Shown: positions 7,997 through 62,338 of the stretch, piece by piece
Position numbering within the stretch: the first letter of the stretch is position 1
How the letters are laid out: each line of letters begins with the position of its first letter
Assembly: GCF_030704535.1 (NCBI RefSeq)
Contig: NC_081810.1
Coordinates: forward strand, 1,958,501-2,022,500
From: Vitis vinifera
Taxonomy: Eukaryota; Streptophyta; Magnoliopsida; Vitales; Vitaceae
DNA: 64,000 bases
Reading direction: 5' to 3'
Position numbers and translations under genes: made by a program
The notes under the pieces: model-generated
What the model was told of the DNA's origin: nothing
Databases searched by the model: none
What the model saw: the letters and a program-made list of their open reading frames with translations, nothing else

Positions 7997-8310
7997 GTTT
8001 TTGCTCAATGTGACCTGAAGCTTTCTGAGAAAAGCTTTTAGCCTCGGAATTTGAACCATTCTAGCTCAAAAGAACTTGAGTTTCTTGGTCATTGACTGTC
8101 CAGTTGAGTTCTTGTTTGGGAAATTTAGTTTCCATACCACTCGAAAACCCTTAGATTTTCCTGTTTCAGGGCATTTGTGAAGGCCAATGTCATATTGGGA
8201 GTAACAAAAGCTCTGTTTGTTCTAGTTCTTATTTCAAACTTTCTAGATTTTGAAAGTCATTGGCTGCTTCTTCCTGGTTTTCACTTTCCTGGGTGAGTGA
8301 AAACGACAAA

Positions 8311-10635
8311 ATGCAGAAGCCTCCACCTTCGGTCGAATTTGCTCTGAAGGAGACAAAGCCCCAACTTGGCGGGGGCAGTGTGATTGGGGACAAGCTCACA
8401 TGTGCCTATGACCTAGTTGAGCAAATGCACTATCTTTATGTCCGGGTCGTTAAAGCCAAGGATTTACCCCCAAAAGATGTAACTGGCAGTTGTGATCCTT
8501 ATATAGAAGTGAAACTCGGGAACTATAAGGGGGTTACCAAGCATTTTGAGAAGAAGACGAACCCTGTATGGAATCAGGTTTTTGCTTTCTCAAAAGATCG
8601 GCTTCAAGCTTCAGTTCTTGAAGTTGTGGTGAAAGATAAGGATTTTGTGAAAGATGATTTCATGGGTAAGGTTAGTTTCGATCTCCATGAAGTCCCAAGA
8701 CGTGTGCCACCGGATAGCCCATTGGCTCCACAGTGGTATAGGCTGGAGGATAGGAAGGGGGAGAAGGCTAAGGGAGAGCTCATGTTGGCTGTCTGGATGG
8801 GAACTCAAGCAGATGAGGCTTTTCCAGATGCCTGGCATTCAGATGCAGCAACAGTCAGCATTGAAAACATTACCCACATTCGATCCAAGGTATACCTTTC
8901 CCCCAAGCTTTGGTATCTTCGGGTCAATATCATCGAAGCCCAGGACTTGGTGCCTAGTGACAAAAGTAGGTACCCTGAAGTTTTTGTGAAGGGCACCTTA
9001 GGAAATCAGGCTTTGAGAACCAGAACATCTCAAATCAAGAGTATTAACCCAATGTGGAATGAAGACTTGATTTTTGTAGCTGCTGATCCATTTGAGGAGC
9101 CTTTGGTTTTGACTGTGGAAGATAGAGTGGCATCTAATAAAGATGAAGTCTTGGGTAAGTGTGTGATTGCTTTACAGAATGTACAGAGGAGGTTGGACCA
9201 TAAGCCCATTAATTGGAGGTGGTACAATCTTGAAAAGCATGTGCTTGTGGATGGGGAACTGAAGAAGGAAACCAAATTTGCTAGTAGGCTTTGTATGAGG
9301 ATCTGTTTGGAAGGTGGGTATCATGTCTTCGATGAATCTACACAGTATAGTAGTGATTTTAGGCCAACGGCAAAGCCATTGTGGAAGCCTAGCATTGGGA
9401 TTCTGGAAGTGGGGATTCTAAGCGCTCAAGGACTGGCTCAGATGAAGACGAAAGATGGGAGGGGAACAACGGATGCTTACTGTGTTGCTAAATATGGGCG
9501 GAAATGGGTTAGGACAAGGACAATCATAGATAACTTCAACCCAAAATGGAATGAGCAGTACATTTTTGAGGTCTTTGATCCATGTACTGTTATTACCTTA
9601 GGGGTTTTCGACAATTGTCACTTACATGGGGGCGATAAAACTGGAGGGACAAAGGATCTGATAATCGGTAAGGTCAGAATCCGGCTGTCTATTCTTGAGT
9701 CTGAGCGGGTTTACACACACTCATATCCTCTTATAGTGCTGCAATCTAAAGGGGTGAAGAAGATGGGTGAAATACAGTTAGCTGTGAGATTCACATGTTC
9801 AACTTTAGTTAACATGTTGTATCTTTATTCACAGCCACTGCTGCCGAAAATGCACTATATTCATCCACTGTCTGTGATTCAGGTTGATAGTTTAAGGCAC
9901 CAGGCGACTCAGCTTCTCTCAGTGAGACTGGGCAGGGCTGAGCCACCCCTGAGGAAGGAGGTGGTGGGGTATATGCTGGATGTCGATTCGCATATGTGGA
10001 GTATGAGGAGGAGTAAAGCTAATTTCTTCAGAATCATGGGGGTTATAGGTGGGCTGATTGCAGTTGGAAAATGGTTCAACAATATCTGCAATTGGAAGAA
10101 CCCTCTTACGACCATCCTCATTCACATCCTCTTTGTGATACTGGTCCTTTTTCCTGAGCTCATACTTCCAACGATTCTGCTCTACCTCTTTTTTATTGCT
10201 CTCTGGAACTTCCGACGGAGGCCAAGGCACCCTCCTCACATGGATATCCAACTGTCTCATGCTCATGCCGCCCATCCTGATGAATTAGACGAAGAGTTTG
10301 ATACATTCCCAACTTCAAAACCATCGGATCTTGTTAGGATGAGGTATGATCGGCTGAGGAGCATAGCAGGGAGGATTCAGACTGTGGCTGGCGACATGGC
10401 AACTCAAGGGGAGAGGTTTCAGTCTCTTCTGAATTGGAGAGACCCGAGAACTACAACTCTGTTTGCAGGCGCTTGTCTGATTGGTGCCATAGTGCTCTAT
10501 GTTACACCATTTCAAGTTTTGGCCCTTCTTGCAGGGTTTTATATACTAAGGCATCCCAGGTTTCGCCAAAAGCTTCCTTTTACTCCACTCAACTTCTTTA
10601 GGAGATTGCCTTCAAGAGCTGACAGTATGTTATAA
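8311..10635 (+). CDS. Multiple C2 and transmembrane region protein (MCTP/FTIP type)
   Basis: A single uninterrupted 774-residue frame. I start at the ATG at 8311 (MQKPPPSVEF), the usual start in this family; the open frame extends 17 codons further 5' but has no ATG there. C2 domains lie at about residues 41-140 (Ca-binding Asp residues in DVTGSCDPY and KDKDFVKDD), 201-305 and 363-478. A PRT_C phosphoribosyltransferase-like C-terminal domain follows, with hydrophobic segments at about 598-633 and 713-745. The conserved linkers KETKPQLGGG, RSKVYLSPKLWYLRVN, SQPLLPKMHYIHPL and MWSMRRSKANFFRIMG are present. The protein ends in SML. MCTPs sit in the ER at plasmodesmata, and FTIP1-type members move florigen. 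The second C2 (SDKSRYPEVF) has lost canonical Asp residues, as is common in the family. A poly-A signal AATAAA lies at 10711. It looks intact and functional. Confidence 0.95.
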   Translation: MQKPPPSVEFALKETKPQLGGGSVIGDKLTCAYDLVEQMHYLYVRVVKAKDLPPKDVTGSCDPYIEVKLGNYKGVTKHFEKKTNPVWNQVFAFSKDRLQASVLEVVVKDKDFVKDDFMGKVSFDLHEVPRRVPPDSPLAPQWYRLEDRKGEKAKGELMLAVWMGTQADEAFPDAWHSDAATVSIENITHIRSKVYLSPKLWYLRVNIIEAQDLVPSDKSRYPEVFVKGTLGNQALRTRTSQIKSINPMWNEDLIFVAADPFEEPLVLTVEDRVASNKDEVLGKCVIALQNVQRRLDHKPINWRWYNLEKHVLVDGELKKETKFASRLCMRICLEGGYHVFDESTQYSSDFRPTAKPLWKPSIGILEVGILSAQGLAQMKTKDGRGTTDAYCVAKYGRKWVRTRTIIDNFNPKWNEQYIFEVFDPCTVITLGVFDNCHLHGGDKTGGTKDLIIGKVRIRLSILESERVYTHSYPLIVLQSKGVKKMGEIQLAVRFTCSTLVNMLYLYSQPLLPKMHYIHPLSVIQVDSLRHQATQLLSVRLGRAEPPLRKEVVGYMLDVDSHMWSMRRSKANFFRIMGVIGGLIAVGKWFNNICNWKNPLTTILIHILFVILVLFPELILPTILLYLFFIALWNFRRRPRHPPHMDIQLSHAHAAHPDELDEEFDTFPTSKPSDLVRMRYDRLRSIAGRIQTVAGDMATQGERFQSLLNWRDPRTTTLFAGACLIGAIVLYVTPFQVLALLAGFYILRHPRFRQKLPFTPLNFFRRLPSRADSML

Positions 10636-16447: not shown

Positions 16448-19400
16448 ATGGACTCGAGAAAATCAATAGAAGATCAATTCTCCAAGCTACATCCATCCCT
16501 GCCTGTGAGCACAAGAATTGGGATAGTGGGAGGTGGTCCAAGTGGCTTGTCAGCTGCTTATGCACTCGCTAAGCTTGGTTACAGTAATGTAACCGTGTTG
16601 GAGAAGTATCAAACTGTTGGGGGCATGTGTGAATCAGCAGAGATTGAAGGTACAAATTGATTATGAATATACTTTCTCTCTAGTTTTCTATGCCATCTAC
16701 TCGAGCTACATGTATACCATACTTTCCTTGCAGGAAATATATATGATCTGGGTGGCCAAGTTCTTGCTGCAAATAGTGCCCCTGTTATCTTTCACTGGGC
16801 AAAAGAAATTGGGTCAGAACTAGAAGAAATGGACTCCCACAAACTCACCCTTATTGATAGTTCTACAGGGAAGCATAAGGACATAAAAGTTGCAGATGAT
16901 TATGTATCTGTAATCTCACTGACTTTGGAACTCCAGGTCAGTTTCTAGTATATTACATAGAGTGGTTGGCTTATTCTAAAGCTTAGAATGAGTTTATTGT
17001 ATTCGTTTTTTTTTTTTTTTTTTCACAGGATAAGGCAAAGGATTCAGGTCGAATTGGGGTCCATGCTGTAAGTGAAATCGCTTCAGATTTGACTCCTGAG
17101 TTTCTTGAGGCTCGTGGATTTAAATCTGTTCCCAAGTCTGTGGCTTGTGGATACACTGCTTCTGGGTATGGGTTTGTCCAAGACATGCCTTATGCTTACA
17201 TTCATGAGTTCACCCGGACTTCCATGGCTGGAAAAATTCGACGTTTTAAAGGTGGATACATGAACTTCTGGAAGAAGCTCAGTGAAATGCTGCCGATAGA
17301 AGTTCGTTGCAACACTGAAGTATTGGCAGTCAGACGCAGCTCTGCTGGCGTTAGTGTTGATGTGAAAAATTCTAATGGAGAAGTCGAAGTTATAGAGTTT
17401 GATGAGATCATCATCTCTGGATCCTTTCCTTTCAAGAATGGAAAAACTTACAGAGCACCCCCTTCAAGTTCAGCAGGTTTCTAGTTCATTAGTTTCACAG
17501 TGTTCTCCTATTTTTCTTTTGTCCTCTTCCTTTTAGATTGACATTTTTATCTGGAAATCTTCTCTGCAGAACCTGAGACTGGGGTAATGGATATGAATGA
17601 GCTTGAAAAGAAGTTATTCAGTAAAGTACAAACAATTGATTACTATACAACCGTTTTGAAGATTAAAGGGCTGGAGCATATCCCAGTGGGATTCTATTAT
17701 TTTGAGGAATTCATGGACGATCCTGCAACTATTGGACATCCAGTTGCAATGCAGAGATTCTACAACAACACTGATGTTTTCTTGTTCTGGTCTTATGGCA
17801 ATTCTGTTGATATTAAGGGACCAACTGTTACTGAGCTCGCAATCAACACTGCTAAAAATATGGGAGGTGAAATTGAGGAGGTGGTTTTACAACGAAGATT
17901 CAAGTATTTTCCTCACATCAGCAGTCAAGGTAGTATATGCAGCAATTCACTTCTGCACAAGTTAACCCTGCCTGCTGAAGGGGACTAATTCTTTATATTT
18001 GAACACAGATATGAAGGAAGGATTTTATGAGAAAGTGGAATCTGAACTTCAAGGCATGAGGAACACTTACTATGTAGGTGGCCTTATGGCATTTGAGCTC
18101 ACAGAAAGAAACGCATCCTATGCCGTGGCTCTAGTCTGCAAGCACTTTGCAAATGACACTCCTTCACCAACATTTCCATATGTTAAGGTAATTTGTCATT
18201 ATGGATAACTGATCAATGGATAAGTATAACAAATGATGTTATGAGATGTGTTTTAGAATGAATTACTTAATCAAAGCATGTGTTTCTGCAGAGGTTGTTT
18301 CCATTGCAATCAGATGGGTGGGGTGGGAATCCCAAAATATTAGATGAATTCCCAGGAGTGAAGTTCCCCGATATTGCTTCCCTTGATGGCTATTTGAAGC
18401 ACTGGGGGACTCATGAAGTCATCCAAAATAAAACACTCTATACCTGGATTAATGAAGAAGGGGTAGTGGTGAGCCAGAGGACTTACAGAGAACTTCATGC
18501 AAATGCTTCTTGCATTGCTCATAACCTCTTGTTAAACCAGAAACCATTGTTCAAGCCTGGTGACAGGGTTCTCCTGGTCTACATTCCAGGTCTGGATTTC
18601 ATTGACGCCTTCTTTGGGTGCCTAAGGGCAAAACTCTTACCAGTTCCAGTTCTTCCTCCGGATCCACTGCAAAGAGGTGGACAGGCACTTCTGAAGATTG
18701 AAAATATTGCCAAATCATGCAATGCATTGGCCATTCTATCGACCATTAGGTATCATGCAGGTGTCTGTGCAGGTTCTGTGAAGAGTTTGATCTCATTTAC
18801 AGGAAAAAATGGGAAAAACTCAGCTCGCTGGCCTAATCTTCCATGGTTACATACAGATTCTTGGATCAAGTATTCCAGAAACTTGCTTCAGGAAGATATT
18901 GCTGATCAATCTGAACCACAGCCAGATGATCTTTGTTTTCTGCAGTTCACCTCAGGGTCCACTGGTGATGCTAAAGGAGTGATGATAACTCATGGTGGGC
19001 TTATTCATAATGTGAAGTTGATGCGGAGGAGATACAAGAGCACCTCAAAGACAGTACTCGTGAGCTGGCTTCCTCAATACCATGACATGGGGCTGATTGG
19101 AGGACTTTTCTCTGCACTAGTTAGTGGTGGATCTGCAGTTTTATTTTCTCCAATGTCCTTCATCAAGAACCCCCTCTTATGGCTTCAGACCATGAGCAAG
19201 TTCCAGGCCACTCACAGCGCTGGCCCCAACTTTGCTTTTGAACTTGTGGTTCGAAGATTGGAGTCAGGCAAGGATACAGTTCACAATTATAATCTCTCTT
19301 CCATGATTTTCCTCATGGTTGCTGCAGAACCAGTGAGGCAGAATACACTGAAAAGATTTGTGAAGCTTACCAGCCCCTTTGGCCTTTGTGAAGAGGTATT

Positions 19401-22400
19401 GGCTCCTGGTTATGGCTTGGCAGAAAATTGTGTGTTTGTAAGTTGTGCATATGGAGAAGGGAAGCCCATCTTGGTAGATTGGCAGGAAAGAGTTTGTTGT
19501 GGTTATGTGGATACAGAGAATGCCGATGTTGACATCAGAGTAGTTGATCCCGAGACTGGTGAAGAGCAAGAGGAAGTTGGAAAGGAAGGAGAGATCTGGA
19601 TTAGTAGTCCAAGTGCTGGAGTTGGGTACTGGGGCAGGGAAGAACTAAGTGGGAAAACTTTCAGAAATGAGCTTCAGAATCACCCTGGTAGGAGATACAC
19701 TAGAACTGGAGATTTGGGACGAATCATTGACGGGAAATTGTTCATAACTGGAAGGATCAAGGATCTTATTATTGTAGCTGGAAGAAACATTTATGCAGCA
19801 GATGTAGAAAAGACTGTTGAGAGCTCATCAGAACTTCTTCGCCCAGGGTGCTGTGCTGTAATTGGTGTTCCAGAGGAAATCTTATCACAAAAGGGGATTT
19901 CATTGCCGGATCATTCTGATCAGGTTGGCTTGGTCGTGATTGCAGAGGTCAGAGATGGTAAACATGTTGGTAAAGATGTTATTGAACAAATTCAAGCACA
20001 TGTTGCAGAAGAACATGGGGTTACTGTTGCTTCCATCAAGCTGATCAAACCCAAAACCATCAGTAAAACCACTTCAGGGAAAATAAAGAGGTTTGATTGC
20101 ATCAGACAGTTCTCTGATGGAACACTGAGTTTAGTTCCGGAGCCTATATTGTCAAAAAAAGTATTGCATCGGTCTTTCACAACAGGAACATGTAGGGAGG
20201 GAAATACACCTCGACCTGAGCTCAATAAATATCCTCTAACAAATCCTAGGTTGAGTAAAGAAGATATTGTTGAGTTCCTGAAGGGTTTGGTTTCTGAGCA
20301 GACAGGAATTCCTATAAAGAACATCTTTGCCTCTGAGAGCCTATCCTCTTATGGGATTGATTCAATTGGAGTAGTGAGAGCAGCTCAAAAACTTTCAGAC
20401 TTCCTTGGAGTTCCAGTTGGGGCAGTTGATATGTTCACAGCAACCTGCATCGCAGACTTGGCAAATTTCTCAGAGAATCTTGTAAGGAAGTCTCACCATC
20501 AATACATGACCGCTCCATCCTATGTTCCAGAACCTGAGACTGACTTGTCTGAGTTGGTGATGGAAATTGCACCATCTCACAAATTGGGCATTTGGTTTTT
20601 CCAACTTCTGGCCCTCATCTACATTTCTGTGTTGCTGATCATTCCTGCATATCTATCGGTTTCTGCTTTTATAAGTCTGCTCTCTACCTGCTGCAACCTT
20701 ATAGATGGAACTTCTTGGTTGGATTATTTGATTTCTTTGGCTTTTGCTCCACTTGCATGGCTACTTTGCATATTCTCCACCTGCATATGTATTGCCTACT
20801 TGGGGAATTCATTCCTTCAACCGAACTATGCCCTGACCCCAGAAATTTCTATCTGGTCAAAGGATTTTGTTAAGTGGTGGGGACTTTACAAGGTCCAAGA
20901 AGTTGCTTCAAAAGTTCTAGCAGTGCATTTGAGAGGAACAGTGTTCCTGAAATGCTGGTTTGAGATGCTAGGAGCCAGAATTGGATCGTCTGTTTTGCTT
21001 GATACCATTGACATCACAGACCCATCTCTGGTTTCAATTGGGGATGGAGCTGTTATTGCAGAAGGAGCACTGATCCAAAGCCATGAGGTGAAAAATGGAA
21101 TCTTGAGTTTCCTACCAATCAGAATTGGACAAAATTGTTCTGTTGGTCCTTATGCTCTGATCCAGAAAGGAAGTGTTTTGGCAGAAGGAGCTGAAGTACA
21201 GGCCTCACAAAAGAGTGAAGGAGGGACATCTGTATTCCAATCTAACAAGGCTAATAATGTTCCAAAGGTAAGAGCTCTCCAGATTTTCATTTACATCTTA
21301 GCATTGTCAGCTAGAAATCTTCTTTAGCTATTATGTTTCTTTATGGTTAAGTACTTCAACCACTTGTCAGCACATCATGATTCCATTACTTCATTAGATT
21401 CTATAAGGGATTTTCTTTGCCAGTTGATTCAATTTTGGCTGCCTTTTCATTGCTTACAGTAATCCTTTTACTTCAGGGTTCAGTGCTTCCAAAAGATTCC
21501 AGAAATGCTCAGATTGAGGCCATTTACCACTTCTTGGGAATTTACATGGTTGGTTTCCTCAGCTCTCTCGCAGCAGCTCTCTTCTACTTCCTCTACCTTT
21601 GGCTGTCTAGAAGTCCCCCATCCTTTCAACACTTTACTTTTCTTTGCATCTCTGGAGCCTTTCACTGGTTTCCCTTCACCATTATTGCATATACTACCAT
21701 GTTTTCAAGTGCCTCCTTGAGCCCACCTTACTTTGCCATCTCAGTTGCTGTTGCTTATCTAGCTCATGGCTTGATACTTAGCTTTCTCACCTGCACCATG
21801 ACACGCTTCCTTGCTAGAAAACCCGATACAAAGCAGAGCCACATGAAAACCTGGCTCAGACACCGAATTATGATTGCCTGCCATCTTAGATTTGCCAAAC
21901 TCCTTTCTGGAACAGAAGCCCTCTGCATTTACTTGCGGCTTTTGGGTGCAAAAATTGGCAGTCATTGCTCCATCAGAGCCATCAACCCTGTTTCAGAACC
22001 AGAATTGATTTCAATTGGTGCTGGTGTCCATATGGGTGACTTCAGCCGAATCATTCCTGGTTTCTACTCATCCAGTGGTTTTACTTGTGGGCAAATTAAG
22101 GTCGAGGATAATTCGGTAGTTGGGAGTCAAAGCTTAGTCCTCCCTGGCTCTGTCCTTCAAAAAGATGTCATTCTTGGTGCACTTTCAGTTGCTCCAATGA
22201 ATTCAGTTCTCCAAAGGGGTGGTGTTTATATTGGCTCTCAAACCCCAGTCATGATCAAGAACACACTGCATGCTTTGGATCAGAGAATAGAGGAGATGGA
22301 TGTGAAATATAAGAGAATAGTGGGAAACCTTGCTGCAAATTTGGCTGTTACAACGATGAAGGTTAAATCAAGATATTTCCATCGAATTGGTGTAGGTGGG

Positions 22401-24068
22401 AAGGGAATCTTAAAGATTTATGACAATATTAAAGGGTTTCCAGATCACAAGATCTTCCAGCCAGGAAAAAGCTACCCTGTCCTAATCCGGCACAGCAATA
22501 GCTTGGCTGCTGATGATGATGCAAGGATTGATGCGCGTGGTGCAGCATTGAGAATACTGCCAGATGAACCTGGCAGTGACTCTCCACTCCTTGACCTGAC
22601 ATTGAAAACGGGCAATGCCTTTTATGCCCGCACAATTGCTGATTTTGCAACATGGCTTGTGTGTGGGCTTGCTGCAAGGGAGGAGCATGTGAAGCGGATT
22701 CCACGAGTGCGTGATGCTGTGTGGGCTTCCCTGAGGCGAGCAGACTCATTTGCTGAGCTGCATTACTACTCAAACATTTGCAGGCTCTTTCGGTTCAAGG
22801 ATGGACAGGAAATGTATGTGAAGCTCAAGTTAAGGCCTTATGATGAAAAGTTCAGTGAGGATTCCGGTAAGATCGAACCAATTGGGATCCTCCCACCAGA
22901 AACAGGTGCAATTCCAAGGGATGATACCGACACACGCCCATTGCTCTTCCTTGCTGAAGATTTCCAGCAACGTGTGAATTCTGCTGGTGGGGTTCGCTAT
23001 GTTTTCCAGATGCAATTCCAGCCAGTTCCAGGTGATGAAGCCACCTGTGACAGTGCCCTTGACTGCACCAAACCGTGGGACGAGAATGAATTCCCACATA
23101 TCGATGTTGGGGAAATAATTGTTGATCAGATGCTTACCAGAGAAGAATCTGAGCAGCTGGAGTTTAATCCATTTCTACAGTGCCATGAAGTGGATGTCAT
23201 CCGGGCTTCATCATCTTCCCAGAGTGCTTCAATTGACCATGGCCGTTCATTGATATATGAGATTTGCCAGCATTTAAGAAACAGGGAACCACTCCCCGAA
23301 GCCTGGAGGATCTTCCTAGAGCAATCTGATTTTAAAGTAGACCTTTCTGGCTGTCCCATGGCAGCAGCATTGCAGAAAAAAGATGTCCAAAATGTGACCC
23401 TCTCAAGGACTTGGTACCAGACCTTATGGGTTATTTTTGCTCAACCATTGCTGCAAACGGTTTTGCCTTATTTCATCATGGGGCTAGTAGTCTTTGCTCC
23501 TCTAAACTGGGTCTTTTACTGGAAGAACACCAAGAAACTCCCACTTCACTGGTTGCTTCCTTTCTTTTGGCTATCTTCAGGGACTTTGGCTGCCTTGGTT
23601 TGCATAGTGGCCAAATGGGGTTTGGTCGGAAAGAAAAAAGAAGGCGAAACTGCACTGATTTGGAGTAGAAGTGTCTTCATGGACACTATATGGCAAGCCT
23701 TTAGGACACTGGTAGGGGAGTATTTCATGGAAATGATAACTGGGTCTTTTTTGTTTGCTCTGTGGATGAGGCTCATGGGATCGAATATTGAGCTGAATGA
23801 AGGGGCTTATGTGGATAGCATGGGAGCCGTGTTGAATCCTGAGATGGTAGAGATTGAGAGAGGTGGATGTGTGGGAAGAGAAGCTCTTCTGTTTGGGCAC
23901 ATATATGAAGGTGAAGGTGGGAAAGTGAAGTTTGGGAAGATCAGCATTGGGGAAGGTGGTTTTGTAGGGAGTAGAGCTGTGGTCATGCCTGGGGTGAGAG
24001 TGGAGACTGGAGGCAGCCTCAGTGATCTCTCCCTTGCCATGAAGGGAGAAATTGTGAAGCCTAGGTAA
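16448..24068 (+). CDS. Giant fusion: flavin oxidase, FAAL-like adenylation, carrier, membrane, hexapeptide acyltransferase and catalase-like domains
   Basis: Exons 16448-16649, 16734-16936, 17029-17476, 17570-17929, 18009-18187, 18292-21267 and 21477-24068 join without frame breaks into about 2,319 residues. In order: a flavin amine-oxidase-like domain (20-460; GGGPSGLSAA at 28-37, VGGMC at 57-61, C-terminal YYVGGLMAFE); an acyl-AMP-ligase domain (about 480-1080; TSGSTG at 684-689, SWLPQYHDMGLIGG, YGLAENCVF, RTGDLG, KTTSGKIKR); a carrier domain with attachment Ser1155 in YGIDSIGV; hydrophobic pairs near 1230-1305, 1478-1566 and 2102-2170; left-handed beta-helix hexapeptide modules near 1350-1430, 1605-1715 and 2215-2300; and a catalase-like domain at about 1750-2065. 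The adenylation-carrier-membrane-acyltransferase order matches bacterial Pls/PosA NRPSs. Likely role: membrane-bound activation and transfer of an acyl or amino-acyl group coupled to oxidation; substrate unknown. AATAAA at 24167. The exon 7 acceptor at 21477 was chosen because the one at 21423 runs into a stop. Confidence 0.88.
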
Positions 24069-35423: not shown

Positions 35424-37605
35424 TTAACCAACTTCCGCTATGATTTCTTGTAGCTGTATGCCCTCATCCGCCACCTCCTCCTTTGTTGAGTAAAATGTTG
35501 ATACGAAGAAGAACCAACATAGGTTTATCCAAGCCACGATTGTTATCATCCGGTAATAATTGTCCAAACGACTCTGGTTTAAGGTGTTGCCAAACCACCC
35601 TTTGCCTGCTGAAACACAAACTACGCTGAGGAAGCTACCAATCCCAATAGGAATTTTATTGAATACCTCTGATCCGTAGTCCTCCGTAGATTTTGAAACA
35701 TGATAACTGAAGAACTCGTCCAGCCCACTTGTAGCAAGCCCTTCCGCAAGTCCCCACAGGCAGAATTGGGAAGCCAACCGCAAGTCACTCATGGGCACTT
35801 TTTTGCCTTCTGGCACGCCATGTAATCCCCTTTCGTGAACTATTTTCAATCTCTGAATTTCAACTTGCCATGCAAAACTAGGGCATAATACAGAAAACGT
35901 CATTCCAAGACAAATTATCATTTTGAGAGCAAGATTTTGTTGGCTTCTAGAGATCCTTCTTGAAACCAGGAAGTTACACAGACAGGCACTAACTACCTTT
36001 AACACGTCCTTAGCTAAAAGGAAATAAGAAGTATCGATTTGATAACAAGAGTCCATGTTGTCATGTTGCACACTAAAGAAAGTGTCTGCAGTTGACATTA
36101 CCAGACCAAACACGATAAAAGCACTCCACATAGGAATCATTCTTAAAAGAAGCTTTCCTACATTTTCTTGTTTCACAGAACAAAGTGATGGGCTTTTCTG
36201 TTGTGCTTCTGCACCAGCAGTCGGTGATGATTCGGGCAGTTGATTACCACCGTTGTTGAAGGGCTGATCAGGAGGAAGAGTTTGATGATCATTTTTTAGG
36301 TGATACTCATCAGAAGTATCAGGGTACTTGCGATGCCTTTTGGTGCTCTCAGTTTTTGTGTCGGGATGATGTCTCTGATGGGAGAATAAGCTGCCACAGA
36401 AGGACAAGAAGGAAGCAGCTCCTACCATATACATTGAATTCAAAAACATTCTTGACCAAGGTTCATCGAAATTTAAGGGAGTGGGAAACACAACCAAGAC
36501 CCCAGCTGGGGACAACCATATTTTTGTTCGCCACTGTGCTCGATTGTAATTGATATCTGATATGTTTTCATGGCCAGCTATTAACTCATCCAAAAGATAT
36601 GTTTTTAAGAAAGACACACCTCCAGCTTTACCAACTGCTATTAGAACAGAAAGAAACATGTATAGTCCAAAACTGGTGTTTGGAATTCGGTTTGAGGCTG
36701 ATAGGTAAAACATCACAAGACCCTGTAGCAACAATTTTCGAGTTCTTTTAAGAATAAATGATCAAAACAAAATTACAAAGCAACATTCTTGACAAAACTA
36801 GACACAATAAGAGACAAAAGAAATGGATAGTAATGGGACTGTTTCCAACAGAATGAATGGGTAATCTAATATCTATTTTCTCCAATTAAAACTGTACGAT
36901 TTCTCTTATATTTCATACAATCATCACCCTGAATGTTCAATTTCTAGGGTTTCAAATCCATTACCCTGAAACCGAGATAGATGGAAGAAGAAAATAACTA
37001 AATCCATTACAAGCTCACTACCCAAAAATGAAAACACTAAGGACTTGTTTGGTACATGAAATAATGAATAGAAATAAATATTTTGTTTCTATTCCTAAGA
37101 ATGAATTTGGTAATTCTAATTTTAATATTTGGATGTCTGTACAAATGTAAAGTTGGAAAGATAATTTGTCTCTATTTCAATGTTAAGTAAAATTAAGAAT
37201 GAAAATGAGAAAAATAAATAAATAAATTGTTAATAATATTTATACACATGATTTAAAATAAACTTTTTTTATTTTTTTATTTTTTTATTTCTAAAAAACC
37301 TAACAATATACATAGTTTGAAATATTTTTTTTTTATTTAAAAAAAATCCTTGAGAGTTTTTTTTTTTTTTTTTTGCTAAATAATAAAAACCTATTTGGGC
37401 ATATGATTTTAAAAACAAATTTGTTTTTAAAAAATTTATACCATTATTGAGTTGTTGTTCTTTAAAAACAATTTATAAAAACAAAGTAAAATAGAGAATT
37501 GGTCTTCCCATTTTTTTCATTAGAGAAAATTAATTTCAAATCAAATGAGACCTTATATTGAATTTATCAATAAGTTTAATAATTTTAAAAATTAATTTAA
37601 AACTC

Positions 37606-43604: not shown

Positions 43605-44450
43605 AGCCAGCCACCAGCCACCAGTCACTCATGGGCACTTTTGTGTCTCCTGACATGCCTTTTTAATCCCCTTTCATGAACTATTTTCAATCTCTGAACT
43701 TCAACTTGCCATGCAAAACTAGGGCATAATACAGAAAACATCATGCCAAGCCAAATTCTCATTTTGAGAGCAAGATTTTGTTCGCTTTTAGAGATCCTAC
43801 TTGACGCCACAAACTTACACAGATAGGCTACAACTTCTCCTTTAACACGTCCTTAGCTAAAAGGAAATAAGAAGTAGTGATATGAGCGTTCATGTTGTCA
43901 TCAGCTTGCATACTAAAGAAAATCTTTGCAGTGGACATTACCAGACTAAACACGATAAAAGCACCCCACATAGGAATCATTCTTCTACATTTTCTTGTTT
44001 CACAGAACAAAGTGAGCTTTTCTGTTGTGCTTCTCCACCAGTAGTCAGTTGATTTGCATGGTTGTTGCCTTTTCGTGCTCTCAGTTTTTGTGTTGGGATG
44101 ATGACTCTGATGGGAGAGGCAGCTACCACACAAGGACAAGAAGGAAGCAGCTCCTACCACATACATTGAATTCAAATACATTCTTGACCAAGGTTCATTG
44201 AAATTGAAGGGAGTGAAAAACATAAGCAAGACCCCAGCAAGGGACAACCTTATATTTCTTCGCCACTGTGCTCGATTGTCATTGATATCTGATATGCTTT
44301 CATAAAGACACTCCTCCAGCTTTGCCAACTGCTATTAGAACAAAAGCAAACATGTATAGTCCAAAATTGGTGTTTGGAATTCGGTTTGAGGCTGATAGGT
44401 AAAACAGCACTAGACCCTACAGCAACAATTTTCGAGTTCTTTTAAGAATA
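43605..44450 (-). pseudogene. Truncated NPF-like pseudogene, array copy 2
   Basis: On the minus strand only the third exon survives. It runs from FYLSASNRIPNTNFGLY-like sequence near 44400, through SISDINDNRAQWRRNI, FNFNEPWSRMYLNSMY, RMIPMWGAFIVF and LLAKDVLK, then shifts frame near 43815 into LALKMRIWLGMMFSVL and AWQVEVQRLKIVHERGL, and stops. Exons 1 and 2 are absent: similarity to copy 1 ends near 44480. About 120 C-terminal codons are deleted, with VPMSD-like sequence joined directly to the 3' flank. The KTESTKR linker region is shortened too. Clearly non-functional. Confidence 0.9.
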
Positions 44451-51598: not shown

Positions 51599-53739
51599 TC
51601 AAGAGATAAAAATGGATTGAAGCTGCGTTGAAATGTCCAAATTAACTTCCATTGTGATTTCTTGTAGCTGTATACCTTCATCCGCCACCTCCTCCTTTGT
51701 TGAGTAAAATGTTGATACGAAGAAGAACCAACATAGGTTTATCCAAGCCATGACTGTTATCATCCGGTAATAATTGTCCAAACGACTCTGGTTTAAGGTG
51801 TTGCCAAACCACCCTCCACATGCTGAAACACAAACTAAACTGAGGAAGCTACCGATCACAATAGGAATGGTATTGAATACCTCTGATCCATAGTCCTCCA
51901 TAGATTTTGAAACATGATACCTGAAGAACTCGTCCAGCCCACTTATAGCAAGCCCTTCCGCAAGTCCCCACAGGCAGAATTGGGGAGCCAGCCACGAGTC
52001 ACTCATGGGCACTTTTGTGTCTTCTGACATGCCTACTAATCCCCTTTCGTGAGCTATTTTCAATCTCTGAACTTCAACTTGCCATGCAAAACTAGGGCAT
52101 AATACAGAAAACATCATTCCAAGACAAATTATCATTTTGAGAGCAAGATTTTGTTGGCTTTTAGAGATCCAACTTGACACCAGGAGCTTACACAGATATG
52201 CTACAACCTCCTTTAACACGTCCTTACCTAAAAGGAAACTAGTAGTAGTGATTGGATGAGCCTCCATGTTGTCATCTTGCATAATAAAGAAAGTGTTTGC
52301 AGTTGACATTGCCAGACCAAACACGATAAAAGCACTCCACATAGGAATCATTCTTAGAAGAAGCTTTGCTACATTTCCTTGTTTCACAGAACAAAGTGGT
52401 GAGCTTTTCTGTTGTGCTTCTGCACCAGCAGTCGGTGATGATTCGGGCAGTTGATTTCCATCGTTCTTGAAGGGCTGATCAGGAGGAAGAGTTTCTTGAT
52501 CCTTTTTGAGGCAATACGCATCAGAAGTATCAGGGTACTTGAGATGCCTTTTGGTGCTCTCAGTTTTTGTGCTGGGATGTCTCTGATGGGAGAGGCAAGT
52601 GGCCCCCAAGGAAAAGAAGCCAGCAGCTCCTATCATACACATTGAATTCAAGAACAATCTTGGCCAAGATTCATCGAAATTTAAGGGAGTGAAAAACACA
52701 AACAAGAACCCAGCTGGGGACAACCATATATTTATAAGCCACCGTGCTCCATTACGATCGATATCTGGTATGTTTTCAGAGCCAGCTATTAACTCATCCA
52801 AAAGAAATGTTTTTAAGAAAGGCACTCCTCCAAATTTACCAATTGCTATTGGAACAGAAAGAAACATGTATAGTCCAAAATTGGTCTCTGGAATTCGGTT
52901 TGAGGCTGATAGGTATAACATCATTAGACTCTGCAACAACAATTTTGGACTTCTTTTAAGAATAAATTGATTAAAACAAAATTACAGGGCAACATAAGCT
53001 ATGTGCTTGACAAAACTAGATACAACAAGATATAAAACGAAATGGAGTAATCGCAACTGTTTCCAAACGAATTAATGGGTGATGATTTCTCTTATATTTC
53101 AATCAATCATCACCCTCAATGTTCAATTTCTAGGGTTTCAGATCCATTACCCTTTGTAAATTGATCAAATCGTCGGTAGTAGCTTGATGACTAACATTTC
53201 TGATCATGAACTTAAAATTTTCAACTACTTGATATAAAAGTAGTAGATTGGAAAAAAAATGTGAGCAATATGAAGAAGATTTTCTTTCTGCTACAAAATT
53301 TATGCGTTTCATTTCACCTACTCCAACGGAAGAAACTTACCAGACTGAAGGAAGCAGTTGAAAAGATAATAATCTTTCTAAAATTAGACCTTCTGGAATA
53401 GCCCCACGCTCTCACCACTATTTGTAGCCACTCCCGCACATTCACAAGTAGTGCTGATCTGCGTATGGTGTCTTTGTTCAAAGTAGCAGTGAAGTATGTC
53501 ACCAGGACACTCGCTACGTTATAATTCACAACGTTGAGGCAGTAAACCGCAGCTATAAGAAAATTTTAGAAAAATTTCAAATTAATGAACTCCCAGGACT
53601 TGATTTATGTAATAATCAAAAATTAAATTTCTAGCTGGAAAATACCTGTGATGAATAAGGCCACCTTACAGAAGCAAATGTAATATTTCACCTGACCCTT
53701 GATCCATCCACTCACCCTCTTGACAACATCTTTCTCCAT
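51599..53739 (-). CDS. NRT1/PTR (NPF) family transporter-like protein, array copy 3
   Basis: Minus-strand exons 53739-53646, 53552-53341 and 52930-51599 have the same phases and the same first two lengths (94 and 212) as copy 1. They give 545 residues. The motifs match: LLRMIPMWSAFIVFG, FLLGKDVLKEV, SFAWQVEVQRLKIAHERGL, VPMSDSWLAPQFCLWGLAEG, GLDEFFRYHV, IGSFLSLVC, WFGNTLNQSRLDNYYRMI. The C-terminus is extended relative to copy 1 (EITMEVNLDISTQLQ). As in copy 1, the helix-1 ExxER proton-coupling motif of the family is not seen. The 5' leader holds an expanded (GA)n tract where copy 1 has only a few repeats. The frame is intact, so it is a plausible active paralogue of 35424-38270; substrate unknown. 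Confidence 0.83.
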
Positions 53740-60598: not shown

Positions 60599-61845
60599 AT
60601 GGCTTCAAAACATGATATTGGTTGGGAGCATGCAGAACCTATTGGTGGTAGTAGAAGAACCACAAAGTGTAAATATTGTGGGAAAGTTATACATGGCGGT
60701 ATAACAAGATTAAAGCAACACATCGCACATATATCTAGACAAGTGGAAGGATGTCCACGTGTATCGGTAGAAGTGTCACATAGTGTTAGACAACATATGT
60801 CTAATACTTCAAAAGAAAAAACACAGTTAAAGAAAAAAAAAAGAACGACTTTTGAATTCCTTAAATAGAGAAATTTTCTATGAAATTGATGAGGGTGATT
60901 CTGATGATGAAATTGAGGAAGTTGCTATGACTGATTTTGAAAGAAGACAAATGAAACAAGCAATGAAAGAAAGTCGTCGAATTTTTTAAAAAGGTGGACA
61001 AGAGCATCAGAAGGGTGGTAGTTCCTCACAACCTTCTAATGCTAGGATTAAGCGCGGACTGACACGTAGCTTCAATGTAAGAGAAGGAGCTAGCATACCT
61101 CCAAAAGGAATTGATCCCTACATGTTCCCATCAAAGCAGAAATCAATAAAAAGCTTGTTTTCTACTAAAGGCGTGAAGAAAGTGGGTAAAGCTATTTCTA
61201 AATTCTTTCTCTTTAATAAAATACCCTTTAATGCAGCTGACAGTGGACCTTACTATCAATCAATGATTGATACCATAGCAAAAGCAGGTCCAAACATCAA
61301 GGGTCCCACAGGATACCAAATTGGAAATACATATTTGGAAGAGGAGGTGCAAGAGCTTGAGGTATACATAACAACATTGAAGGCTAAATGACCTATATAT
61401 GGGTGCACAATCATGTGTGATGGTTGGAGTTCTAGGACTAGAAAGCCTATCATCAATTTCATGATTTATTGTGATAGAAGTATGATATACCATTCTTCAG
61501 TTGACACTACCAACATACCTAAGACAACAGACTACATCTTTTCCCTTATGGATAAAGTTGTAGAGGAGGTTGGGGAGGAAAATGTTGTTCAAGTAGTCAC
61601 TAATAATGAGGCAAGTTTTAAAGCAGCCGGTATGTTGTTGATGGAGAAGCGGAAGCATTTGTTTTGGTCTCCTTGTGCAGACCACTGTATTGATTTAATG
61701 CTTGAAGATATTGGAAGCATGAAGCAGATTAAGGAGACATTAGATCAAGCTAAGATGATCACAGGATTTATTTATAATATCTTGAAAGTAGTGAATTTGA
61801 TGAAAGTGTTCACCAAGGATAGAGATTTGTTAAGGCTAGGGTTAT
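60599..61845 (+). pseudogene. hAT transposase pseudogene (BED zinc finger plus DUF659-type region)
   Basis: The N-terminus has a BED-type zinc finger (CKYCGKVIHGGITRLKQHIAH; two Cys, two His). An acidic linker with DEGDSDDEIEEVAM follows after a frameshift in the A-run near 60830-60845. Next come a YMFPSKQKSIKSLF stretch and the DUF659 region (PGPNIKGPTGYQI-like, CTIMCDGWSSRTRKPIINFM, VVTNNEASFKAAGMLL, WSPCADHCIDLMLEDIG). In-frame stops at about 60988 and 61389 and the frameshift inactivate it. The C-terminal catalytic and dimerisation part is missing. Confidence 0.9.
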
Positions 61846-62338
61846 TAGTTTATTGACCACATCCTTTTGCATTATGACAAGGCAAGGGTGTTGTGGGAGC
61901 TATTATTCTCTCTCTTTAGAGTTTTTTTGGGTGATGCGGTCCACAGTTAGAGAGACTCTACTAGGCTGGCATGATTCCTTTATTGGAAGAAAACGGAAAA
62001 AGGTTTGAAGGGCAACTCCTTTATACCTCTTCTGGACTATTTGGAAAGAGAGAAATAGAGGATCTTTTGAGAATGTGAAACTCTCAATCCAAAGGCTGAA
62101 ATACTTGTTTGTGTAACTTGTTAACTTAGACCAAACTGTTTATAGGTGAAAGATTGATGTCCATAGTAGATTTCATTGATTGGTTAGGGTCGGTTTGAGG
62201 GAGAGAGTGTCTTTTTGTTTTCTCTTCCTTTTTTTAGCATTTTTTGGCCACCATTGTATACATCATGTGTACTTTGGTTTGCGCTTTTTGGCGTGGTTAA
62301 TACAAATCTCATTTACTGATCAAAAGAAAAAAAAAATG
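61846..62338 (+). mobile_element. 5'-truncated L1-type LINE fragment (3' end of ORF2 plus tail)
   Basis: The frame picks up DHILLHYDKARVLWELLFSL, then (with shifts) SFIGRKRKKVWRATPL, FWTIWKERNRGSFENVK and KYLFV, the zf-RVT C-terminal region typical of plant L1 ORF2. It ends TTACTGATCAAAAG and a run of A near 62326-62337. It begins abruptly inside the hAT transposase, consistent with 5' truncation during insertion. No clear target-site duplication was found. Confidence 0.8.

Follow-up and report, generated by a model that had tools for sequence, protein, structure and literature searches.

A grape gene that may encode a membrane-anchored fatty-acyl assembly line with flavin and catalase-related haem domains

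We propose that a single gene of grapevine (Vitis vinifera) encodes a membrane-anchored, single-carrier fatty-acyl assembly line, which would load a fatty acyl group, modify it and transfer it. Judged from the homologies of its domains, we give this reading a probability of about 0.55. The gene lies in a window of 64,000 nucleotides, the whole stretch of DNA analysed (assembly GCF_030704535.1, contig NC_081810.1, positions 1,958,501 to 2,022,500), and all coordinates below are positions in this window. From the N-terminus, the product consists of a FAD domain, an adenylation domain, a carrier (with Ser1155) and three modules, each composed of a putative transmembrane pair and a beta-helix. Homology places a further, haem-type domain between modules 2 and 3.

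Gene structure and occurrence in plants

The locus is one intact spliced gene, as the first-pass annotation had already read it. Seven exons, separated by six introns that are all GT-AG, join into an open frame of 2319 residues running from ATG to TAA. Its features, all on the plus strand, are as follows.

16448..24068, +, coding region, 7 exons, 2319 aa and stop (spliced frame)
16448-16649, 16734-16936, 17029-17476, 17570-17929, 18009-18187, 18292-21267, 21477-24068, +, exons
16505..18175, +, FAD domain, residues 20-460, exons 1-5 (Pfam Amino_oxidase 56.7 bits; 2B9W match)
18337..20133, +, putative fatty acyl-AMP-ligase-type adenylation domain, residues 480-1078 (profile and solved-structure sequence matches)
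20257..20484, +, carrier (PP-binding), residues 1120-1195; Ser1155 codon 20362-20364 (PF00550 41.2 bits)
20581..21219, +, hydrophobic pair 1 and beta-helix module 1, residues 1228-1440 (TIGR02353 positions 484-673; hydropathy)
21528..22253, +, hydrophobic pair 2 and beta-helix module 2, residues 1474-1715 (TIGR02353 positions 266-455; hydropathy)
22299..23291, +, catalase-related haem-type domain, residues 1731-2061 approximately (1U5U E 1.5e-30)
22380-22382 and 23256-23258, +, codons of His1758 and Tyr2050, which belong with Phe1757 and Lys1833 to the haem-domain residues (residue table)
23445..24065, +, hydrophobic pair 3 and beta-helix module 3, residues 2113-2319 (TIGR02353 positions 485-687; hydropathy)

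Three homologue searches listed 301 proteins. All seven segments are covered at 80% or more in 117 of them, with 68-80% identity to the grape protein; 461 matches were obtained in a homologue search, 120 of which are among those listed. Given this number of homologues, sequence comparison tells us that the 2319-residue architecture is not a product of chance. An assembly of gene fragments is ruled out by the single frame and the full-length homologues.

Homologues are present in many flowering plants and partly in a conifer, whose gene model shows the ligase and carriers together with the haem domain and tail, but not the FAD domain. The rarity in plants presumed by the first-pass annotation was thus overstated, all the more because a HemY-FAAL-catalase arrangement was reported in 2021. 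The accessible text of that report (Patil et al. 2021, PMC8460268) describes plant-only proteins of unknown function with a FAAL-like domain between HemY (FAD) and catalase domains. As far as this text shows, they belong to the same family as the grape protein.

Flavin, ligase and carrier domains

Among 57 solved sequences compared with the FAD domain, the only full-domain match is 2B9W of P. acnes (E 9.5e-26, residues 19-451), covering the entire FAD and substrate domain. It is labelled a putative aminooxidase; we take it to be the polyunsaturated fatty acid isomerase PAI, which moves or introduces double bonds. The two proteins have in common the pattern YFPH-SS-D-K-G-YEKVE and, near the end of the domain, QG-RNT-Y-G. 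Unlike 2B9W, the plant domain is fused to a ligase, and its isomerase activity is putative. Relatives with E<=1e-15 occur as open frames of 426-466 aa in at least 4 of 782 genomes, a lower bound with up to four candidates scored per genome. Four plasmid records match the domain as well, and both of the two inspected contain stand-alone genes. The genome scans for relatives of the FAD and haem domains covered groups other than Pseudomonadota and Myxococcota, with grape as the sole eukaryote.

The acyl-AMP-ligase core noticed earlier is borne out by ligase profile matches and by its motifs, TSGSTG from residue 684 and YHDMG from residue 727. Every position of TSGSTGD, YHDMGLIGG and GYGLAEN is conserved at 97% or more (118 rows). 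The carrier serine is 1155, as the first-pass annotation stated, and the carrier Asp-Ser is kept in the rows examined.

As to the type of ligase, models of fatty-acid--AMP ligases score 302 (PRK05850), 287 (FadD32) and 264 bits (PRK12476). The amino-acid adenylation model TIGR01733 gives 136.9 bits against a cut-off of 317.4, versus 419-437 in four Pls/PosA controls. The top-scoring model, PRK05691 (NRPS/PKS, 4334 positions; 309 bits), is matched by the plant protein at positions 32-565 and by the four controls further inside, in the range 1129 to 2782. FAAL models are nearer than amino-acid adenylation models, yet the plant protein scores under their own cut-offs; indeed, none of the 25 NCBIfam models listed for it reaches its own cut-off. 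Solved sequences point in the same direction. Seventeen match the adenylation domain at E<=1e-30, and eleven of these carry a FadD23/28/32, acyl-CoA synthase or fatty acyl-adenylate ligase label. Polyketide or saframycin synthase is the label of the top four (7R7E-G, 3KXW), which presumably are FAALs too; the remaining two are McyG and, in last place, an amino-acid adenylation protein. Sequence relationships thus assign the domain to the fatty acyl-AMP-ligase type, not to the amino-acid type.

Bacterial FAALs (7R7E, 3KXW, FadD32 5EY9) are among the best solved relatives, and the plant domain differs from them in being joined to a membrane tail. Its span from GYGLAE to VDPE is also 15-17 residues shorter than in these three. 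We assume that the FAAL-specific insertion is located in this region, and because the region is shortened, rejection of CoA by the plant ligase is unsure.

The Pls-like tail and the haem domain

Three hydrophobic pairs follow the carrier (1228-1303, 1474-1564 and 2113-2168), as read from a hydropathy scan and not from a TM predictor. Two further hydrophobic stretches within the ligase (557-575 and 730-750) are probably strands of its core. Together with three stretches matching TIGR02353 (Pls/PosA), the pairs bear out the earlier description of membrane pairs alternating with three beta-helix modules. The whole-protein TIGR02353 score is 187.9 bits with a cut-off of 423.1, versus 548-773 bits in the four controls. 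Direct alignment of the tail to the four Pls/PosA proteins gives E 2e-21 to 1e-17 for the best piece in each.

TIGR02353 also matches in 13 of 14 control genomes (above cut-off in one), and weak matches lie at four other places in the grape genome, on four other contigs. Lone stretches are therefore weak evidence, and we base the call of a Pls-like tail on the score of the entire protein and on the direct alignment. A GTDB scan with the C-terminal alignment and two poor patterns returned 46 stretches with no relative among them, and a second scan 3 relatives in 85 stretches.

The Pls/PosA likeness claimed by the first-pass annotation holds in so far as the tail aligns; it does not extend to membership, the TIGR02353 score being under the cut-off. 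By alignment, then, the C-terminal half shares ancestry with bacterial Pls/PosA and is Pls-like without being a member. Enzymes of the epsilon-poly-lysine synthetase type show the same order of adenylation domain, carrier and three hydrophobic-pair/beta-helix modules, and their tail forms amide bonds. The plant protein differs by its FAAL-type adenylation domain, an additional N-terminal FAD domain and the haem domain before module 3. With the TIGR01733 and TIGR02353 scores of the four controls at hand, we rejected the amino-acid NRPS that the first-pass annotation had proposed.

Of the redox domains fused to it according to that annotation, the FAD domain is present and the catalase-related haem domain was overlooked (PF00199 31.9 bits, cut-off 25). 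Its match to coral allene oxide synthase (1U5U, E 1.5e-30, 109.6 bits) is far stronger than that to the best true catalase (E 3e-4, 22.9 bits), which rules out a true catalase. Invariant columns make up 22% of the domain, the highest share of all segments (3-19% in the other six), and the grape genome contains one match to it.

Parts of PMC5617202 name the haem-site residues of the coral-type enzyme. In coral numbering, H67, R102, Y353 and R360 are kept in 244 of 244 plant rows and R64 in 243; Thr66 is replaced by Phe and Asn137 by Lys in all 244 (the table omits 58 of the 301 proteins: 45 matched in part, 13 not at all). Because both distal-haem residues are replaced, standard allene oxide chemistry is doubtful. 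Sequence similarity to coral AOS-LOX (1U5U, 3DY5) and cyanobacterial haem-LOX spans the domain, including the proximal Tyr, distal His and haem arginines, and only the plant domain sits within a presumed acyl assembly line. In a tree with long branches, the plant domains group with three cyanobacterial haem-lipoxygenase frames of 825 residues each, and this split keeps SH-aLRT of 99-100 after dropping rows in three ways. Among 1078 genomes from three phyla, 12 contain relatives with E<=1e-10, in open frames of 364-825 aa.

Twelve listed legume homologues, forming a single clade, contain every segment except the haem domain. Because the best TIGR02353 stretch of this paralogue runs across modules 2 and 3 (positions 280-685), the haem domain looks like an element inserted into the Pls-like tail. 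Haem-less homologues may occur outside legumes too; the short-query search (207 matches, 120 listed) favours proteins up to about 2100 residues, including haem-less ones.

Proposed activity and alternatives

A possible model, whose catalytic steps, substrate, acceptor and step order we infer from the homologies, is the following. The ligase would adenylate a long-chain fatty acid, free and probably unsaturated, and load it onto the phosphopantetheine arm at Ser1155. By analogy with 2B9W, the FAD domain may move or introduce double bonds, and the haem domain may rearrange a fatty-acyl hydroperoxide. Coral AOS-LOX and its cyanobacterial relatives carry a fused lipoxygenase, whereas none of the 19 Pfam families matched by the plant protein is a lipoxygenase domain; we hence propose that the hydroperoxide would be supplied by a separate lipoxygenase. 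Transfer of the completed acyl group to an acceptor within the membrane or at its surface would fall to the three beta-helix modules.

It is conceivable, if unlikely, that the product is a simple N-acyl or O-acyl lipid made by the ligase, carrier and beta-helix modules, and that the role of the FAD and haem domains is confined to protection or regulation, such as peroxide disposal. Persistence of the legume paralogues indicates that the haem step is not essential to this core, and the Thr66 and Asn137 replacements agree with such a role. Against this reading, no segment is better conserved than the haem domain, neither its ligand nor its distal His varies among the rows examined, and the FAD match spans the entire 2B9W-like domain. 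We consider it improbable that both redox domains are catalytically dead scaffolds of a mainly structural or sensor protein: the same two replacements and the shortened ligase region could be read this way, but the rows examined retain the haem ligand, the distal His and the arginines, as well as the adenylation motifs and the Asp-Ser of the carrier. A true Pls/PosA-like enzyme polymerising or coupling an amino acid would fit the aligned C-terminal half and the three TIGR02353 stretches, and is made very improbable by TIGR01733 (137 versus 419-437) and TIGR02353 (188 versus cut-off 423). Database models of homologues are often split or partial, yet six GT-AG introns, a single frame and all segments together in 117 of the 301 listed homologues make it hardly credible that the locus holds two or three distinct genes or stems from bacterial contamination.

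The fatty-acyl assembly line is thus the reading we prefer. Carrier-based acyl assembly lines are, to our knowledge, hardly known in plants. The accessible text of PMC8460268 is silent on the Pls-like tail, on which sort of catalase relative is present, on the relation of the FAD domain to a fatty-acid isomerase and on the legume paralogue, and our literature search found no published account of the tail, the kind of haem domain or the haem-less legume paralogue. Allene oxide chemistry in plants is attributed to CYP74 P450s in PMC8124189. As a tentative extension, to which we give somewhat less than an even chance, the family might unite three steps of a conserved pathway in one polypeptide: activation of a fatty acyl group, its oxidative remodelling by a haem domain of cyanobacterial/coral type, and its transfer. 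The product would be a plant oxylipin or acyl lipid of a new class, not made by the CYP74 route. In legumes, the forms that have the haem domain and those that lack it make a natural comparison. A widespread flowering-plant gene in which a fatty acyl ligase and a carrier are combined with a flavin domain resembling an isomerase and with a haem domain of coral/cyanobacterial type would point to an unexplored lipid product.

Gene structure and the type of adenylation domain

The gene belongs to a genome of 495.6 Mb in 21 contigs. Splicing of the window DNA joins seven exons, separated by GT-AG introns of 79-209 bases, into a product of 2319 residues, for which the Pfam scan gives flavin amine-oxidase, AMP-binding, PP-binding, hexapeptide-repeat and catalase matches. 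Motif landmarks named in the first-pass annotation are found at their places in the spliced protein. Its AMP-binding, PP-binding and hexapeptide-repeat domains are borne out by Pfam; the catalase domain had been overlooked. The gene and its neighbors are:

8308-10632, about 6 kb upstream of the gene, MCTP-type long open frame carrying three C2 stretches and one PRT_C domain
16448-24068 (+), gene under study
35424-36761 (-), POT-family frame (PF00854)
51599-52981 (-), POT-family frame (PF00854)
61392-61856, DUF659 frame

A shorter frame at 43828-44331 (-), similar to the POT-family pair and free of Pfam matches, looks like a third, damaged copy. DUF659 occurs in hAT-type transposons.

The gene had been read as coding for a Pls/PosA-like NRPS. 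In the NCBIfam profile search, which speaks against an amino-acid type, the adenylation domain scores 302 bits with the FAAL model PRK05850 and 287 with FadD32, versus 137 for amino-acid adenylation. Judged by these profiles, it is a FAAL-type domain. The best-scoring model overall is PRK05691 (NRPS/PKS of 4334 positions, 309 bits), aligned at its positions 32-565; four Pls/PosA controls align to it at more internal positions. The interval between GYGLAE and VDPE, which we take to be the site of the FAAL-specific insertion, is 15-17 residues shorter in the plant ligase than in 7R7E, 3KXW and 5EY9. According to an excerpt of Patil et al. 2021 (PMC8460268), FAALs with this insertion deleted gain some CoA activity and removal of another element gains more. 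The same paper describes proteins restricted to plants, of unknown function, in which a FAAL-like domain is flanked by a HemY and a catalase domain. Of five papers that contain the title words searched for, the four besides Patil et al. are, by their titles, not on plants. Neither the Pls-like tail nor the coral-type haem domain nor the legume paralogue is described in what our literature search, in open-licence PubMed Central, brought up.

The tail and the redox domains

TIGR02353 aligns to the plant tail in three stretches, and the hydropathy scan places hydrophobic stretches of the tail in three pairs. Single TIGR02353 stretches are weak as proof, because the model also responds in 13 of 14 control genomes, in one of them above its cut-off. 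The Pls/PosA controls are four records with that annotation, taken from the 39 plasmid records with a match to the tail. They align with it in pieces, at 20-33% identity, and modules also cross-match out of order, as expected of repeats. Their hydrophobic stretches are clustered much as in the plant tail, most clearly in L032 and L034. All four exceed cut-off (TIGR02353 548-773, TIGR01733 419-437 bits); the plant protein stays under it (188 and 137 bits). On this comparison, the tail resembles a Pls-type tail and the protein is not a Pls/PosA member. Pls tails form amide bonds.

The N-terminal FAD domain aligns across residues 19-451 with 2B9W (E 9.5e-26), which we take to be the P. acnes polyunsaturated fatty acid isomerase (PDB label: putative aminooxidase). 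With the remaining 56 solved sequences matched (57 in all), the best stretch is confined to roughly the first third of the domain or to a smaller part of it.

The allene oxide synthase domain of coral (1U5U) aligns with residues 1731-2061 at 109.6 bits, versus 22.9 for the best catalase. An excerpt of PMC5617202 lists R64, R102, R360, H67, T66, N137 and Y353 as haem-site residues of the coral enzyme. H67, R102, Y353 and R360 are kept in 244/244 plant rows of the residue alignment and R64 in 243/244; T66 is replaced by Phe and N137 by Lys in all 244. The cyanobacterial frames L020-L022 retain Thr at T66 and have Ser at N137. In the tree, plants and L020-L022 are split from coral, L012 (another relative), Bacteroidota and remaining relatives with support 100/99, and the split persists at SH-aLRT 99-100 with long rows removed three ways. 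Pairwise scores with the haem domain of the window are 185-194 bits for L020-L022 and 122 for L012. In L020, the one of the trio taken into the domain scan (L021 and L022 are frames of equal length), the haem domain is followed by a lipoxygenase domain (PF00305 33.9 bits, cut-off 23.6), and PF00199 reaches 19.4 bits, under cut-off. Other coral-type relatives (L013, L014, L023-L027; L014 from Actinomycetota, the rest from Bacteroidota) have Ser at Thr66 and an alignment gap, possibly a misalignment, at the haem-ligand Tyr.

Distribution of the fusion

The whole-protein search gave 461 matches; among the 120 listed, 116 have plant names, including Magnolia, Tasmannia and Aristolochia, and four have no organism. 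Three monocots (Acorus, Dioscorea and Eleusine) and the conifer Cryptomeria come in addition from a second protein search, all four as partial models; the Cryptomeria model shows no FAD domain and has 48% identity (50% to exon 7). Public names for some pieces of the plant protein (P0121, P0126-P0128, P0139, P0140) are borrowed from bacterial relatives, for example linolenate 9R-lipoxygenase-like or y4iK-like, although these pieces have no lipoxygenase domain listed.

Bacterial relatives of the haem domain occur in 5/386, 1/396 and 6/296 genomes (three phyla, frames of at most 825 residues), the centre genome being counted in each time, and those of the FAD domain in 3/386 and 1/396 (frames of 426-466 residues). 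Among the genomes searched with the haem domain (386, 396, 296) or the FAD domain (386, 396), none turned up a counterpart of the fusion.

Proposed activity and the legume paralogues

The finding is real, and its interest differs from that first claimed: the protein is likely an assembly line for fatty-acyl groups that includes a haem domain, rather than a poly-amino-acid synthetase. From the observed gene, domain order, homologies and conservation we suggest a possible course of reaction. A fatty acid would be loaded onto Ser1155 and undergo a flavin-dependent double-bond change; the haem domain would alter a hydroperoxide that comes from a separate lipoxygenase, and the tail would perform the transfer. 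The invariant Phe and Lys beside the haem argue against the domain being a plain allene oxide synthase and point to another outcome.

Twelve of the 301 proteins listed, every one legume-named, have all segments except the haem domain:

P0273, P0275, P0280, P0285, P0286, P0288, P0290, P0291, P0292, P0294, P0295, P0300

Their genera are papilionoid. A tree built from alignment columns outside the haem domain joins them in a single clade (SH-aLRT 100), and two carrier domains are present in five of the 12. In the Medicago copy, the best TIGR02353 stretch (280-685, 211 bits) is below cut-off. P0239 from Cicer (1126 aa), which also belongs to this family, is a partial model with four PP-binding domains. 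Legumes also have copies with the haem domain, and such pairs, with and without it, are a natural experiment.
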